Assembly (NCBI RefSeq): GCF_014145325.1
Contig: NZ_JACHTF010000003.1
Span: 1-64,000, forward strand
DNA: 64,000 nucleotides
Direction of reading: 5' to 3'
DNA from: Marilutibacter spongiae
GTDB taxonomy: Bacteria > Pseudomonadota > Gammaproteobacteria > Xanthomonadales > Xanthomonadaceae
Shown: piece by piece, positions 7,090 to 51,791 of the stretch
Layout: each line of letters begins with the position of its first letter
How positions within the stretch are numbered: the first letter of the stretch is position 1
Notes under the pieces: model-generated
Database searches by the model: none
Told to the model about the DNA's origin: nothing
The model's input: the letters and a program-made list of their open reading frames with translations, nothing else
Program-made: the position numbers and the translations under genes

Positions 7090-7470
7090 TTACTTGGAGT
7101 CGGCGTTCGACACGGTGAGGTCGCTGGTGTCGACATCGGTCACGCCCTCGGTGCTGCGGGCGATCTCGATGGCCTTGTCGATCTCGGCCTGGCTGCCCAG
7201 CGCGCCCGACATGTGGACCACGCCGTTGAGCGTGTCGACGTCGATCTCGGTGCCCTTGGTGAGGTCGTCGGCCAGCAGCTGGCTCTTCACCTTCGTGGTG
7301 ATCCAGGTATCGCCCATCGGCTGGGTCGACTCGGCGTCGTTGACGGTCTCCTCCGGCTCGGTCTGCTGCGCGGCAGGGTTGGCGACCGCGTAGCCGGTGC
7401 CGACCAGCAGCATGGCGCCCATCAGGGCGCTGGCGCCGATATTCGAGATCCGCTTGGTATTGATGCGCAT
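7090..7470 (-). CDS. Periplasmic BON-domain protein
   Basis: A 126-residue protein with a signal peptide of about 30 residues (ending ...GTGYAVANPA) and one BON domain at about residues 55-120 (TWITTKVKSQLL...DTLNGVVHMSGAL...AIEIARSTEGVTDV). BON domains bind phospholipid membranes; OsmY-type relatives are periplasmic stress proteins. The start at 7470 has GAGGAG 7 nt upstream; the longer in-frame extension lacks such a site. It belongs to a group of exported genes (barrel, fasciclin) transcribed away from the ECF/ChrR pair, which suggests envelope stress control (inference). Confidence 0.88.
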   Translation of the reverse strand: MRINTKRISNIGASALMGAMLLVGTGYAVANPAAQQTEPEETVNDAESTQPMGDTWITTKVKSQLLADDLTKGTEIDVDTLNGVVHMSGALGSQAEIDKAIEIARSTEGVTDVDTSDLTVSNADSK

Positions 7471-7773
7471 GGTGAACTCCTCGTCGTCTGTGGGATGGCC
7501 TCCGCGCGGACGACGTCGGGGGATGCGCCGTGCGGAAACTCCAGTGCCGACGCTACGCAGGCGGCGGTGAACGACGGGATATCGTGGTGTTAACGATGCG
7601 TGCGCAAGGTGTTCGCCACGCGTTCGAAACACGCGAAATCCGCGTGTATCGCGACAACGCGTCACAGTTCTGGCCCAAGCGCGGCTGAACGATCACAAGC
7701 CCGGCCGACGGTGTTCAGGCCGCGGACGGGGAACGATCCGGCCTCGCGGGAGGCCGGATCTTCGGCGCGCAGG
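7471..7773. other. Intergenic region upstream of the BON gene
   Basis: 303 bp between the barrel gene stop and the BON gene start. It holds the barrel gene terminator (7735-7760) and must hold the BON promoter. I cannot pick a convincing -35/-10 pair. No further gene is visible. Confidence 0.5.
7735..7760 (-). terminator. Hairpin terminator after the outer-membrane barrel gene
   Basis: An 11-bp perfect stem, GATCCGGCCTC / GAGGCCGGATC, with a 4-nt loop, 13 nt past the barrel gene stop on the reverse strand. There is no long T-tract after it. Confidence 0.7.
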
Positions 7774-8562
7774 TCAGAAGTCCCAGCGCGCAGAAACGCT
7801 CACCGGCACCGAGACGCGACTGCCGGTGTCGTTGATCGACGCCAGGCCCAGTCCGCCGATGGCGCTGTCGTCGTCGGACAGGTCGCCCACGTAGCGCACC
7901 CCGGTTTCGGCGGTGATGCTGAAACGGTCGTTGACCGGGATCGTGACGCCGACGTCGAGACCGCCGCTGACCGCCCAGCCCTTGTCGTAGAACGCCGCAT
8001 CGGGAATGGTGATCGCGGCGGCGGGGATCTCGAAGGTGGCATCGATGGCGTCGGTCTGGGTGGCGCCCAGCCGCGCCGCGAGGTAGGGACGCGCGGCGCC
8101 CGCGGCCATGAAGTAGTGGCGGTAGCCGAACTCGATGCTCAGCGCGCGGTAGTCGGAGAACGTGCCATAGACCGGCAGTTCCGTGGCCAGTGCGGGCACG
8201 TAGGCGCCGCCGACCTGCACCCGGCCTTCGTCGGCGCGCGCCTGGCGGATCTGCCCGAACACCTCGGCGCGGTCGCTGAGGCCGTAGCTCATTTCGAGCC
8301 CCAACGAGGTCGCCATGTCGTAGATGCGGTCGTGGCCGCGGGCACCGATCCGCAACTCGGCGTCGACGCCGGAGAGCGCCGGGTTCAGGGGGCCGAGATC
8401 GGGCACCACGGCGGTGGCACCGTCATGCACGTCGCCACTGACCGGCGCCTCCACGCCGCCGGTCAACGAGAACGAAAAGCGGCCGGCCTCGGGGCCGGCT
8501 GCTGCGGGGAGGACGGGCGCGGCGGCAATCGCCAGCGCCGGGATGAGAAGCCGTGTCTTCAT
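7774..8562 (-). CDS. Outer-membrane beta-barrel protein
   Basis: A 262-residue protein with a signal peptide (MKTRLLIPALAIAAAPVLPAAA), then alternating hydrophobic/polar strands rich in Gly and aromatic residues (LGLEMSYGLSDRAEVFGQ, SIEFGYRHYF, FSITAETGVRYVG). It ends in ARWDF, the C-terminal aromatic signal recognised by BamA. The pattern fits a small 8- to 12-strand barrel of the OmpA/OmpW-like superfamily. The substrate, if any, is unknown. It sits between the BON and fasciclin genes on the same strand, each with its own hairpin, so each may have its own promoter. Confidence 0.8.
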   Translation of the reverse strand: MKTRLLIPALAIAAAPVLPAAAGPEAGRFSFSLTGGVEAPVSGDVHDGATAVVPDLGPLNPALSGVDAELRIGARGHDRIYDMATSLGLEMSYGLSDRAEVFGQIRQARADEGRVQVGGAYVPALATELPVYGTFSDYRALSIEFGYRHYFMAAGAARPYLAARLGATQTDAIDATFEIPAAAITIPDAAFYDKGWAVSGGLDVGVTIPVNDRFSITAETGVRYVGDLSDDDSAIGGLGLASINDTGSRVSVPVSVSARWDF

Positions 8563-8669
8563 CGGATCACCTTCTTCCTTGGGAACGGGAAAGGGGGAGA
8601 CGGGAAAAGGGGGGCGACTCCGCGGAGAGGAAGCACCACGACGAGGCGCGGAGCCGCCCGTTGAAGAAC

Positions 8670-8694
8670 CCGGAGGCGGGGAGTGCGCCTCCGG
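8670..8694 (-). terminator. Hairpin terminator after the fasciclin gene
   Basis: A 9-bp perfect stem, CCGGAGGCG / CGCCTCCGG, with a 7-nt loop, 24 nt past the fasciclin stop on the reverse strand, followed there by a short T-containing stretch. Confidence 0.6.
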
Positions 8695-8717
8695 GGATGC
8701 CCTGCCCAGGAGCGAGG

Positions 8718-9260
8718 TCAGGGCATCAGAACCGTGTCGATCACGTGGATGACGCCATTGGACTGCCGCAGGTCGGTGGCCGTGACCCGTGCGCTGTTGC
8801 CCTGGGCATCGGTGAGGGCAACGCCGTCGCCCTGCAGGCGCGCGGTCAGGGGTTCGCCCTGCACGGTGGTCAAGGTGGCGCTGCCGCCGCCGGCTTCGAT
8901 CTGCTCCACCAGGGTCGCGGCGTCGACGTTGCCCGCCACCACGTGGTAGGTCAGCACGGATGCCAGCTTGGCCTTGTTGGCCGGTTCAAGCAGCGTCTCG
9001 ACCGTGCCGTCGGGCAGCGCGTCGAACGCGGCGTTGGTGGGCGCGAACACGGTGAACGGGCCCTTGCCCTTGAGGGTGTCCACGAGGCCCGCGGCCTTGA
9101 CCGCAGCGACCAGGGTGCCGTGGTCGGGCGAGGCCATGGCGCCACCGACGATATCGGTGGCGGGCCGGGTGGACGCCGCGGACGCCATGGGGGTGCCGGC
9201 GAAGGCGGTCGGGGCCAGCAGGGCAAGCGAGACTGCAAGGATGAATCGCGTGTGTTTCAT
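8718..9260 (-). CDS. Secreted fasciclin (FAS1) domain protein
   Basis: A 180-residue protein with a signal peptide (MKHTRFILAVSLALLAPTAFA) and one FAS1 domain at about residues 45-180. It shows the two conserved FAS1 blocks: GPFTVFAPTNAAFDALP and NGVIHVIDTVLMP. FAS1 domains mediate adhesion to cell surfaces or matrix. GAGGAG precedes the ATG at 9260; longer in-frame extensions lack this. It is divergent from an ECF sigma factor. A near-identical bipartite element faces each gene, so I infer control by that sigma factor. Confidence 0.93.
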   Translation of the reverse strand: MKHTRFILAVSLALLAPTAFAGTPMASAASTRPATDIVGGAMASPDHGTLVAAVKAAGLVDTLKGKGPFTVFAPTNAAFDALPDGTVETLLEPANKAKLASVLTYHVVAGNVDAATLVEQIEAGGGSATLTTVQGEPLTARLQGDGVALTDAQGNSARVTATDLRQSNGVIHVIDTVLMP

Positions 9261-9312
9261 CGAAGTCGCTCCTCGGTGCGTTGGGGGATGGCTGCTCGGC
9301 GCAGCGGCAGCC

Positions 9313-9340
9313 TGTACGCGACGCGTGGCGGATCGGATGC
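9313..9340 (-). promoter_or_regulatory. Bipartite promoter-like element facing the fasciclin gene
   Basis: Read on the reverse strand, this 28-nt element starts GCATCCGATC and ends GCGTACA. It matches the plus-strand element at 9389-9416 in 22 of 28 positions, with both ends conserved and the middle variable, as expected for an alternative sigma promoter. It lies about 55 nt before the fasciclin start. That it is an ECF promoter is inference. Confidence 0.5.
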
Positions 9341-9388
9341 AGGGCGATCGTCGGAAGCGCCACGCCGTCCGGCAGTCGACGAGCGGAG

Positions 9389-9416
9389 GCATCCGATCGG
9401 CCAAGGCATGCGTACA
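9389..9416 (+). promoter_or_regulatory. Bipartite promoter-like element facing the ECF sigma gene
   Basis: The plus-strand copy of the divergent element: GCATCCGATC, a variable middle, then GCGTACA. It lies about 130 nt before the sigma factor start and would allow autoregulation. The GATC and CGTA blocks recall, from memory, promoters used by ChrR-controlled ECF sigma factors. I cannot confirm the spacing. Confidence 0.5.
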
Positions 9417-9547
9417 ACCCCCCAGGCCATATCGCGAGATGCCGCCATGCCCTTCCAGACCAGACGCCCGACGAGCCGCCTTCGCGCTTTGCTGCGTGCA
9501 TCCACGGGACTTGACCGCTGCACGCGCCAGCGTCGTCCGGCACCCCT

Positions 9548-10183
9548 ATGATGGCCGCTGACCTCGACACCGGAAGGGTGGCGGCCTTCGGGCCGGCCAG
9601 ACGCTTGAATCGATCGCGCCAGTCCAGACCCGACGACGCCGGCTATTGGGCCGGGCAGATCGCGCGCGTGGCGCAGCAGCAGGACCGCGAGTGCTTCCTG
9701 CGCATCCACGACCACTTCGCGCCGCGCCTGCAGCGCTACATGCTCGGCCTCGGGGTCGCCCCCGCGCAGGCGGAAGAGCTGGTCCAGGACGTCATGCTCA
9801 AGGTCTGGCGTCGCGCGCGCCTGTTCGATCCAGCGCGCGCCCATTTCTCGACCTGGTTGTTCCGCATCGCGCGCAACCTGCACATCGACCACCTGCGCCG
9901 GCAGCCGCACTGGCTGCCGGTGGACGACGGCCTGGAGTACCTGGAGCGCCAGGAAGGCGACCGGGACGACGAAGGGCCGGACGCCGTGGCCGACCATGCC
10001 GGGCTCGGCGACGCGATCGACCGGCTGCCGGCCGCGCAGGCACGGTTGCTGCGCATGTCCTACCTGGAATCCAAGAGCCACAGCGAGATCGCCAGTGAGC
10101 TGGGGATGCCCCTGGGTACCGTCAAATCCAACCTGCGTCGCTCGTTCGAGAAGCTCAAGGACGCACTGAGGCCGCCCCTATGA
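9548..10183 (+). CDS. ECF-type RNA polymerase sigma factor (ChrR-partnered)
   Basis: A 211-residue group IV sigma factor. Region 2 is at about residues 50-115 (FLRIHDHFAPRLQRY...AEELVQDVMLKVWRRA..F...FSTWLFRIARNLHIDHLRR). Region 4 is at about 155-205 (LPAAQARLLRMSYLESKSHSEIASELGMPLGTVKSNLRR). An approximately 35-residue basic extension precedes region 2. The stop overlaps the next ATG (ATGA), so sigma and anti-sigma are translationally coupled. No clear ribosome site precedes the ATG at 9548. In related systems the sigma factor responds to singlet oxygen or peroxide; here the signal is unknown. Confidence 0.94.
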   Translation: MMAADLDTGRVAAFGPARRLNRSRQSRPDDAGYWAGQIARVAQQQDRECFLRIHDHFAPRLQRYMLGLGVAPAQAEELVQDVMLKVWRRARLFDPARAHFSTWLFRIARNLHIDHLRRQPHWLPVDDGLEYLERQEGDRDDEGPDAVADHAGLGDAIDRLPAAQARLLRMSYLESKSHSEIASELGMPLGTVKSNLRRSFEKLKDALRPPL

Positions 10184-10845
10184 ATCCCCACCACCACCTC
10201 GACGCCGCCACCCTGCTCGGCTTCTCCGCCGGTGCGCTCCCGGACGCATTCTCCGTGGTCGTCGCCGCCCACCTGGAAGTGTGCGCGCATTGCCGGGCGC
10301 AACTGGGAAGCGCCGACCGGATCGGCGGGCAGTTGCTTCGCCAGCAGGAAGGCGCCCCGCTTGCGAGCGGGGCGCGGGAAGCGCTGATGGCGCGGCTGGA
10401 CGCCGACCCGGTGCAGCTCGATCGCCCCGCGTCGCCGGCGCCGGTTCGCGGACGCGCCGACGAGGACCTTTTGCCGGCCGCGCTCAGGCCCTACTTCGGC
10501 GAGCGCTACAGCACCCTGCGCTGGCGCATGATCGGGCCGGGCGTCCACCACATCCGCTCGCGCGACGTCGACGACAGCCACCTGATGCTGCTGCGCACGT
10601 CGGCCGGGCGCAGCATTCCCATGCACAGCCACGGCGGCAACGAATTGACGATGATCCTGCGCGGTGCCTACGACGATGCCCTGGGCCACTTCGGCGCCGG
10701 CGACGTCGCCGACCTGGACTGCGACGTCGAACACCAGCCGGTCACCGCGCCGGGCGTGCCCTGCATCTGCGTGGCCGCCACCGACGCGCCGTTGCGGTTC
10801 CGGGGCTGGATCGCGCGTACGCTGCAGCCGCTGTTCGGCCTCTGA
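10180..10845 (+). CDS. chrR: ChrR-family zinc-dependent anti-sigma factor with cupin domain
   Basis: A 221-residue cytoplasmic protein. The N-terminal anti-sigma domain has a zinc motif H-x3-C-x2-C (HLEVCAHC at about residues 30-37). The C-terminal cupin domain (about 110-210) has 'HSHGGNELTMILRGAYDD...GDVADLD..VEHQP'. ChrR-type proteins bind and silence their ECF sigma factor and release it after oxidative stress sensed through the cupin half. The start overlaps the sigma stop by 4 nt. The gene name reflects family similarity only. Confidence 0.9.
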   Translation: MNPHHHLDAATLLGFSAGALPDAFSVVVAAHLEVCAHCRAQLGSADRIGGQLLRQQEGAPLASGAREALMARLDADPVQLDRPASPAPVRGRADEDLLPAALRPYFGERYSTLRWRMIGPGVHHIRSRDVDDSHLMLLRTSAGRSIPMHSHGGNELTMILRGAYDDALGHFGAGDVADLDCDVEHQPVTAPGVPCICVAATDAPLRFRGWIARTLQPLFGL

Positions 10846-32194: not shown

Positions 32195-32772
32195 CGCCAG
32201 TCCTCCAGTTTTCGTTGCAGTGCCTCGCGGGCACGCGATAGATGTGTCTTGACCGAGCCTTCGCTGCAGCCCATGGCCCGCGCCGTGGTGGCGACGTCGA
32301 GTTCCTCGAGCACGCGCAGCGAGAAGGCCTCGCGCTGGCGGGCGGGCAGTTCGCCCAGCGCCTCGGCCAGGCGGGCATAGCCTTCGCGCCCGTCGTGGGC
32401 GCGGGAGGGGTCCGGGCCATCGTCGGACCACTCCACCGGCGTCTCGTCCTCGTTGCGCGGCGCGGGCGACAACCAGGTCAGCCGGAACCGGCGCCGACGC
32501 TGCACGTCGATGATCCGGCGGCGCAGGATGCTCCAGAACAGGGGCGTCCATTCCGACGCCGGCCGGTCCTCGTAGGCCAGCATCTTCATCATCGCGTCCT
32601 GCACCGCGTCCAGCGCGTCCTCGCGCTGGCGCAGGCCGGTCTCGGCGAAGCGGAACGCGCGCGCGCCGATCCCCGCCAGGAAAGCCTCCAGCGTGGCCGG
32701 CAGGTCGGGCCGGACGGTCTCGTCCGGCGCCTCGTCGCCTGGGAGCGTGCGTGCGTTCACCGTGTCGAGCAT
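32191..32772 (-). CDS. ECF-type RNA polymerase sigma factor
   Basis: A 193-residue group IV sigma factor. Region 2 reads LEAFLAGIGARAFRFAETGL...DALDAVQDAMMKMLAYEDRP and WTPLFWSILRRRIIDVQRRR. Region 4 reads LPARQREAFSLRVLEELDVATTARAMGCSEGSVKTHLSRAREAL. I use the ATG at 32772. It heads a three-gene cassette with a membrane anti-sigma-like protein and a DUF3106 protein. The cassette sits on the opposite strand between pntAa and pntAb. Confidence 0.93.
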   Translation of the reverse strand: MLDTVNARTLPGDEAPDETVRPDLPATLEAFLAGIGARAFRFAETGLRQREDALDAVQDAMMKMLAYEDRPASEWTPLFWSILRRRIIDVQRRRRFRLTWLSPAPRNEDETPVEWSDDGPDPSRAHDGREGYARLAEALGELPARQREAFSLRVLEELDVATTARAMGCSEGSVKTHLSRAREALQRKLEDWR

Positions 32773-51142: not shown

Positions 51143-51791
51143 GGGGCGATTCCTCCGGGCCCAGGACCCGGCGCAGTGATTTCAGGGCGCGGTGGTAGGC
51201 CACCTTCAGGGCGCCGGTACTCTGCTGGCTGCGCGCGGCCGCTTCGCTGAGCGAGAGCTCCTTGATCCGCAGCAGTTGCACCGCTTCCCGTTGCCGGGGC
51301 GGCAGGGCGTCGATGGCCTCGTGCAGTGCGCGGGCGGCTTCGTCGCGCGAGGCCTGGTCGGCCGGGCCGGCGTCGTGGTCCACGGCCTCGGGCAACGCGT
51401 CCGCGTCGTCGAACTCGTGCTTCACGCGATGCGTGCGCCGGCGCAGCAGGTCGATGCAGCGACGGCTGGCGATGGTGCCCAGCCAGGGCTTGAAGGGGCG
51501 CCCGCGCTCGTAGGTGTGGCGGATGCCGTGGACGATCACCAGGATGTCCTGCACGGCGTCGTCGACCTCGTCGGGATGGCCCAGGTAGCGTCGCGCGACG
51601 GCGCGCACGTACGGCGTGATGCCGCTCAGCAGGGCGTGGTAGGCATGGCGGTCGCCGTCCTGCGCCAGGGCCATGAGCTGCTCCCAGGGCACGGCGTCGC
51701 GGGCGTCGTCGCCGTTGGCCGTCGGCGTGGCGTTCGAAGGGGACATCGGCGGGGTGGGGGATGTCCGTTGGAAGGGGACGATGGTGCCCAT
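51135..51791 (-). CDS. ECF-type RNA polymerase sigma factor (NrsF-partnered)
   Basis: A sigma factor of about 218 residues. Region 2: YHALLSGITPYVRAVARRYLGHPDEVDDAVQDILVIVHGIRHTYERGRPFKPWLGTIASRRCIDLLRRR. Region 4: LPPRQREAVQLLRIKELSLSEAAARSQQSTGALKVAYHRALKSLRR. The start is uncertain: ATG 51791 is used here, ATG 51746 is equally possible; neither has a good ribosome site. It is followed by its NrsF-type anti-sigma. The ppk2 gene lies upstream on the same strand. Confidence 0.92.
   Translation of the reverse strand: MGTIVPFQRTSPTPPMSPSNATPTANGDDARDAVPWEQLMALAQDGDRHAYHALLSGITPYVRAVARRYLGHPDEVDDAVQDILVIVHGIRHTYERGRPFKPWLGTIASRRCIDLLRRRTHRVKHEFDDADALPEAVDHDAGPADQASRDEAARALHEAIDALPPRQREAVQLLRIKELSLSEAAARSQQSTGALKVAYHRALKSLRRVLGPEESPHD

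Follow-up and report, generated by a model that had tools for sequence, protein, structure and literature searches.

In the 64,000-nt stretch of Marilutibacter spongiae DNA analyzed here (the window), the gene of a fasciclin-domain protein and those of an ECF sigma factor and its ChrR-family anti-sigma factor point away from a common intergenic region, in which two nearly identical elements are predicted to act as promoters. The features of this locus are the following:

7774..8562, minus strand: outer-membrane-barrel-like protein, downstream of fasciclin (DUF3575 match below its cut-off)
8718..9260, minus strand: fasciclin (FAS1) domain protein, 180 aa (PF02469, 122.8 bits)
9315..9340, minus strand: predicted divergent fasciclin promoter, exact match (-35 GCATCC at 9340-9335, spacer of 16, -10 CGTA at 9318-9315)
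9389..9414, plus strand: predicted sigma-chrR promoter, exact match (-35 GCATCC at 9389-9394, spacer of 16, -10 CGTA at 9411-9414)
9548..10183, plus strand: ECF sigma factor of the ECF11 (RpoE) type, 211 aa, opened at the ATG at 9548 (PF04542/PF08281)
10130..10141, plus strand: codons for N195 through R198, recognition-helix (-35) residues of the sigma that covary with the two bases preceding ATCC
10180..10845, plus strand: ChrR-family anti-sigma factor with a cupin-like domain, 221 aa (TIGR02451)

The sigma factor was assigned to the ECF11 type from its Pfam domains, its structure match and the adjoining chrR gene, rather than from an ECF11 group profile; it contains ECF regions 2 and 4, is nearest to Rhodobacter sphaeroides RpoE (best solved structure, sigmaE 2q1z, 123 bits), and is followed directly by chrR. 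The anti-sigma factor scored 186.2 bits against the TIGR02451 cut-off of 124.5, and its closest solved structure is R. sphaeroides ChrR (2z2s, 159 bits), with which all eight ChrR metal ligands could be aligned as judged by eye; the source text gives these as H6, H31, C35 and C38 for zinc and as the cupin ligands H141, H143, E147 and H177 (PMC6852236). The N-terminus of the fasciclin protein resembles a signal peptide by eye, and its solved relatives include 1w7d and MPT70 (1nyo). The window holds two more matches to sigma-70 region 2, at 32488-32658 and 51432-51614, both on the minus strand.

Fasciclin and the barrel-like gene may form an operon; no barrel-like homologue was found after fasciclin in two of the compared loci (L050 and L051), and two terminator-like matches, at one place, lie within the barrel-like gene (7774-8562). 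Further along, a gene for a BON-domain OsmY-like protein (7090-7476, minus strand) lies downstream of fasciclin, as it also does in L. aestuarii and in a metagenome bin.

The two elements, GCATCCGATCCGCCACGCGTCGCGTACA at 9340-9313 on the minus strand and GCATCCGATCGGCCAAGGCATGCGTACA at 9389-9416 on the plus strand, are identical at 22 of 28 positions. That a near-identical element occurs once on each strand had been noticed in the sequence-only reading, and exact matching confirmed it: the pattern GCATCCGATC-N{9,14}-GCGTACA has exactly two matches in the window, at 9313-9340 (minus) and 9389-9416 (plus), and none of 100 dinucleotide shuffles of the window contained a match. These two are also its only matches in the whole 3.63 Mb genome, with 0 in the reversed control. 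The gap of 11 or 12 proposed at first has to be corrected, since both copies have the same one, 11 in those terms, which equals 16 nt from GCATCC to CGTA.

This spacing is that of the ECF11 promoter TGATCC-N16-CGTA, which the cited texts describe in Pseudomonas syringae (PSPTO_1043; PMC5507510) and, with mapped starts, in Shewanella (RpoE2; PMC4336711). Both window elements have the ECF11 -10 CGTA and the 16-nt spacer; their -35, GCATCC, shares four of six bases with the published TGATCC and differs at the other two. The prediction that both are ECF promoters of the form GCATCC-N16-CGTA is thus supported. A scan of 7600-10300 for sigma-70 promoters (TTGACA/TATAAT hexamers) found 0, a result of little weight because shuffles expect only 0.1. 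We consider it highly probable that the pair represents two back-to-back promoters read by the adjacent ECF11-type sigma factor.

Genome-wide, GCATCC-N16-CGTA occurs at 7 sites against 19 in the reversed control, and the form with GNATCC at 14 against 19. Genome-wide enrichment of the motif was therefore rejected as a means of finding the regulon, and because raw counts are not enriched, the consensus alone does not list its members. Two of the 7 sites are the window pair, three (L130, L131 and L134) were viewed through open reading frame lists only, and two (L142:4732 and L142:6425) fall on contig 44, in the following region:

L142:4732-13217 (contig 44, from 107731 onward): SigK-like sigma factor, RskA-type anti-sigma factor, and an operon of desaturase, FAD, DUF1365, CFA, DUF1295, CFA and lipocalin genes

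The first of these sites lies about 300 nt upstream of the chosen start of the SigK-like sigma gene, and the second starts 56 nt upstream of the likely ATG of the desaturase, which opens an operon with an FAD oxidoreductase, DUF1365 and DUF1295 proteins, a lipocalin and two genes of the cyclopropane-fatty-acid-synthase type. The best structure for the contig-44 sigma is Mycobacterium tuberculosis SigK (4nqw, 103 bits), and the next gene encodes an RskA_C anti-sigma factor (PF10099, 72.5 bits against a cut-off of 29.4), as in SigK/RskA systems. Of the genome's 18 matches to sigma region 2, the window sigma and the SigK-like one are mutual best matches, at 91-95 bits, the rest scoring at most 65. 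The operon presumably resembles the mycobacterial sigK locus and, judging by gene order and annotation rather than by sequence comparison, would correspond to smlt2374-2367. The motif is therefore not exclusive to the window sigma; with GCATCC-N16-CGTA also upstream of a SigK/RskA pair and of a fatty-acid-modifying operon, the ChrR-sigma and SigK-like systems probably overlap on the same targets.

Desaturase genes of other genomes were examined as well. The motif lies no more than 102 nt from the desaturase start in 29 of the best 30 desaturase loci, with the present genome among them, and for those in genomes without ChrR it was found in 10 of 11. A row tally of 41 upstream regions gave the motif in 10/10 ChrR-positive regions, in 22/23 ChrR-negative regions with a SigK-like gene, and in 0/8 ChrR-negative regions without one nearby, which perhaps belong to other desaturases, one genome of this last group (G123) having rskA elsewhere.

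We then examined fasciclin genes as targets across the family. A fasciclin match was present in 172 of 297 genomes and an RskA match in at least 98 of 297, RskA presence, on which the RskA classes are based, being defined as E <= 1e-10 among the candidates scored per genome. We inspected 400 nt upstream of 88 fasciclin genes, one per genome (29 of the best 30 matches plus 59 chosen by class, G289 being from the latter). Where ChrR was the sole system, the exact motif preceded fasciclin in 22/24 genomes; the counts were 28/34 for RskA alone, 5/9 where the two systems coexist and 1/21 in the absence of either, this last class containing fasciclins that are on average more distant. With any system the count is 55/67 versus 1/21 with neither (Fisher p = 1.3e-10), a value that is only descriptive given the relatedness of the genomes and the selection of 59 regions by class. 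By genus, hand-tallied from genus labels, the counts are 8/9 and 11/12 versus 1/13. Within four genera (g3, g11, g26 and g29), the motif was at fasciclin in all sampled genomes with a system (2, 2, 1 and 7, respectively) and in none without (1 genome each), the exception being genus g28, with 1/5 for both systems, 0/2 for ChrR only and 0/3 for neither. The g28 genomes with both systems and no motif at fasciclin are G243, G267, G299 and G319.

Because the upstream motif tracks the presence of ChrR or RskA across the family, fasciclin is likely a target of a sigma factor reading this motif. The link to fasciclin drawn earlier from the window is in this way backed by conservation, including motifs upstream of fasciclin genes at unrelated loci, in genomes with either ChrR or RskA. 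As a separate arrangement, fasciclin and a desaturase gene diverge in L. penaei (G001, L223) and in G016 (L224), each gene having its own motif: GAATCC-N16-CGTA facing fasciclin, and GCATCC or GGATCC facing the desaturase.

Since the motif persists at fasciclin and desaturase genes in genomes without ChrR, it cannot be assigned to the window sigma alone, and it could be argued that the element toward fasciclin serves chiefly as a SigK/RskA promoter, driven by the contig-44 SigK-like sigma, the ChrR sigma only autoregulating. The genome does possess the required SigK-like sigma (4nqw, 103 bits) with its RskA_C anti-sigma on contig 44, GCATCC-N16-CGTA precedes both that sigma and the operon, 28 of the 34 RskA-only genomes have the motif at fasciclin, and a Gram-negative mpt83-sigK-rskA cassette with a SigK site is described in the literature text cited here (PMC7509140). 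However, 22 of the 24 ChrR-only genomes keep the motif at fasciclin, among them G003, a close relative without an RskA match, and so its retention there does not need SigK. In addition, the window sites score slightly ECF11-like, though with an unreliable classifier. We regard this alternative as unlikely, and favor the window sigma as the reader of both promoters.

The classifier, a log-odds promoter model, learned from 81 ECF11 autoregulatory sites and 38 SigK-locus sites. It was correct for 78/81 and 37/38 of them, respectively, in leave-one-out, but only 25/49 held-out divergent promoters of ChrR loci were called ECF11-like, and we take the leave-one-out separation as mostly ancestry. It called ECF11-like 12/22 fasciclin promoters of ChrR-only genomes versus 3/28 of RskA-only genomes and, for what this unreliable model is worth, the window sites slightly ECF11-like and the contig-44 sites SigK-like. 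As the model failed on held-out sites, promoter dialects were rejected as a way of assigning a sigma factor; all four sites may serve both sigmas, or each sigma may have sites of its own.

Conservation at ChrR loci bears on what kind of element this is. A search of 395 genomes of the family Xanthomonadaceae for ChrR gave 84 with a match at E <= 1e-20. We compiled 88 sigma loci, namely the window, 80 fetched from this search and 7 from other searches, after dropping three duplicates (L017, L018 and L020); ChrR-positive genomes G131, G351, G369 and G381 lie outside the set, in which L084 and L094 share one genome and L090 is a cut-off contig. ATCC-N16-CGTA was found upstream of the sigma gene in 86/88 loci, the two without it being L021 and the cut-off L090, and a reverse copy was found in 53/88. 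Fourteen other spacers, from 10 to 24, gave at most 8 forward and 6 reverse occurrences (both maxima at 11), and the N16 motif was found 0 times forward and once in reverse in a control of 450 bp within the sigma gene. A logo of distinct sites (84 forward and 52 reverse, from relatives and this genome) reads tGcATCCa-N15-CGTA, and GCATCC is the common -35 form among ChrR loci of the family. Of the two conserved blocks proposed for the window elements, GcATCC and CGTA were kept, whereas the additional GATC and the terminal CA fall outside the consensus, because the conserved part is only (t)GcATCC-N16-CGTA. Outside the family, TGATCC-N16-CGTA was found upstream of the sigma gene in 8/12 ChrR loci from 11 genomes of the class.

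The pair is also a 28-nt inverted repeat (79%, repeat search) whose arms lie 48 nt apart, a geometry that would suit an operator, the dimer site of a DNA-binding regulator, in place of two promoters. This is very improbable, as the forward copy stands alone in 34 of the 88 loci and both copies are present in 52, the distance between them varies, and their N16 spacing matches a published promoter. Least credible of all is a functionless resemblance due to chance or shared ancestry, which the shortness of the word and raw genome counts below the reversed control might suggest, since the spacing is kept in 86/88 loci while the spacer letters vary and the same layout recurs outside the family with a different -35.

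The genes faced by the 53 divergent copies encode a protein of about 255 residues in 34 loci, a fatty acid desaturase in 10, a barrel-like protein in 4, fasciclin in 3 and an FAD oxidoreductase in 1, the remaining one being unassignable (cut-off contig L090). The ~255-residue protein ('revhw') would be of the Smlt2375 type, going by gene order and annotation and not by sequence comparison. Fasciclin is the divergent neighbor only in this genome, L. aestuarii and one metagenome bin; at 3/53 it is an uncommon occupant of a common promoter position. In another genus, four loci (L060, L061, L063 and L073) have a homologue of the barrel-like gene as the direct neighbor after the motif; as this gene follows fasciclin here, it may belong to the regulon.

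The -35 bases were compared with the recognition helix of the adjacent sigma, numbered as in the window sigma. The 12 ECF11 sigmas from outside the family have R195 in 11 and L198 in 11, and the corresponding residues of R. sphaeroides sigmaE are R and L, as expected for TGATCC. A set of 87 ECF11 sigmas, from the family plus a few near relatives, consists mostly of GCATCC users; 84 have R198, and residue 195 is mainly H, T, S or N. Within the family, R198 goes with G among the two bases ahead of ATCC. GC precedes ATCC in 53/54 cases with H195 and in 4/4 with N195, T195 and S195 go with GC mixed with GG and GA, and in L010 R195 and A198 go with CA. All 31 of the family's SigK-like sigmas examined combine W195 with R198; R198 is not general to SigK, because the residues aligned with these two in M. 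tuberculosis SigK are R and D. Since the -35 bases vary with the recognition helix of the adjacent sigma, there is good evidence that this sigma would read the motif directly, ancestry still possibly contributing. The earlier proposal of an alternative-sigma promoter with autoregulation thus gained backing from conservation, from the published ECF11 spacing and from this covariation.

In Rhodobacter, ChrR releases its sigma factor under singlet oxygen. By the preferred reading of two promoters served by the window sigma, ChrR would likewise release this sigma upon a signal; a rightward start from the 9389 element would yield more sigma and ChrR, and a leftward start from the 9340 element would yield the fasciclin protein, the window sigma presumably doing most of the work there rather than the SigK-like sigma. 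A broader interpretation, which we hold to be somewhat favored by the evidence, is that two sigma/anti-sigma systems, one with a zinc-cupin ChrR and one of the RskA type, read GCATCC-N16-CGTA and regulate a common set of targets, namely fasciclin and the fatty-acid-modifying operon, the ECF11 sigma having left TGATCC with a change of residue 198 from L to R, as in the family's SigK-like sigmas, and the sensor being exchangeable. As genomes keep either system or both, the regulon would then be a two-input module with an exchangeable sensor.

With the ECF11 RpoE/ChrR systems, as far as the texts cited above describe them, the window shares the sigma-chrR operon, the N16 spacing, the ATCC and CGTA cores and a predicted autoregulation; it differs in having GCATCC and not TGATCC, R198 and not L198, and fasciclin in the same intergenic region. 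By sequence, then, the window element amounts to two paired ECF11 promoters whose -35 is specific to the lineage. The published account of Stenotrophomonas maltophilia gives a putative sigma box on both sides between rpoEc-chrR-chrA and the divergent smlt2375-2367, and reports that in a chrR mutant rpoEc and the divergent cluster rise in a sigma-dependent manner, the cluster strongly, by RNA-seq performed once (PMC11832516). The divergent layout around the sigma gene, the boxes on both sides and the sigma-dependent autoregulation, here predicted, are alike, whereas the divergent neighbor there is a lipid cluster and in the window it is fasciclin, a similar operon lying beside SigK/RskA on another contig. 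The GCATCC form may already be shown in the S. maltophilia logo.

The sources cited here already report fasciclin as controlled by RpoE-ChrR and by SigK. The R. sphaeroides fasciclin gene RSP_1409 is tabulated with RpoE-related genes (PMC7074977), and a fasciclin of Azospirillum brasilense is placed under RpoE-ChrR (Dubey 2021, cited in PMC10949492). Crosstalk of ECF sigmas through similar promoters is also known (PMC3817407), and in the open-access literature searched we found no statement that ChrR and RskA systems share this promoter and these targets in one family and one genome. For Lysobacter-like bacteria the locus supplies a readable stress-regulon promoter, ties fasciclin proteins to the GCATCC-N16-CGTA regulon across many genomes, and may be a natural example of one promoter serving two ECF systems; the pattern at residues 195 and 198 opens the -35 specificity of these sigmas to single-substitution tests.

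SigK/RskA is described as controlling MPT70/MPT83 in M. tuberculosis, with mpt83-sigK-rskA cassettes in mycobacteria and Yersinia (PMC7509140), a combination of ECF sigma and fasciclin-family protein like that of the window, where control is predicted; unlike the RskA type of the SigK system, the window anti-sigma is a ChrR with zinc and cupin ligands. The match of the window fasciclin to 1nyo agrees with MPT70 being a FAS1 protein. In four genomes (G008, G029, G126 and G151), fasciclin lies about 2 kb or less from an rskA homologue, in an arrangement like the mpt83-sigK-rskA cassette.
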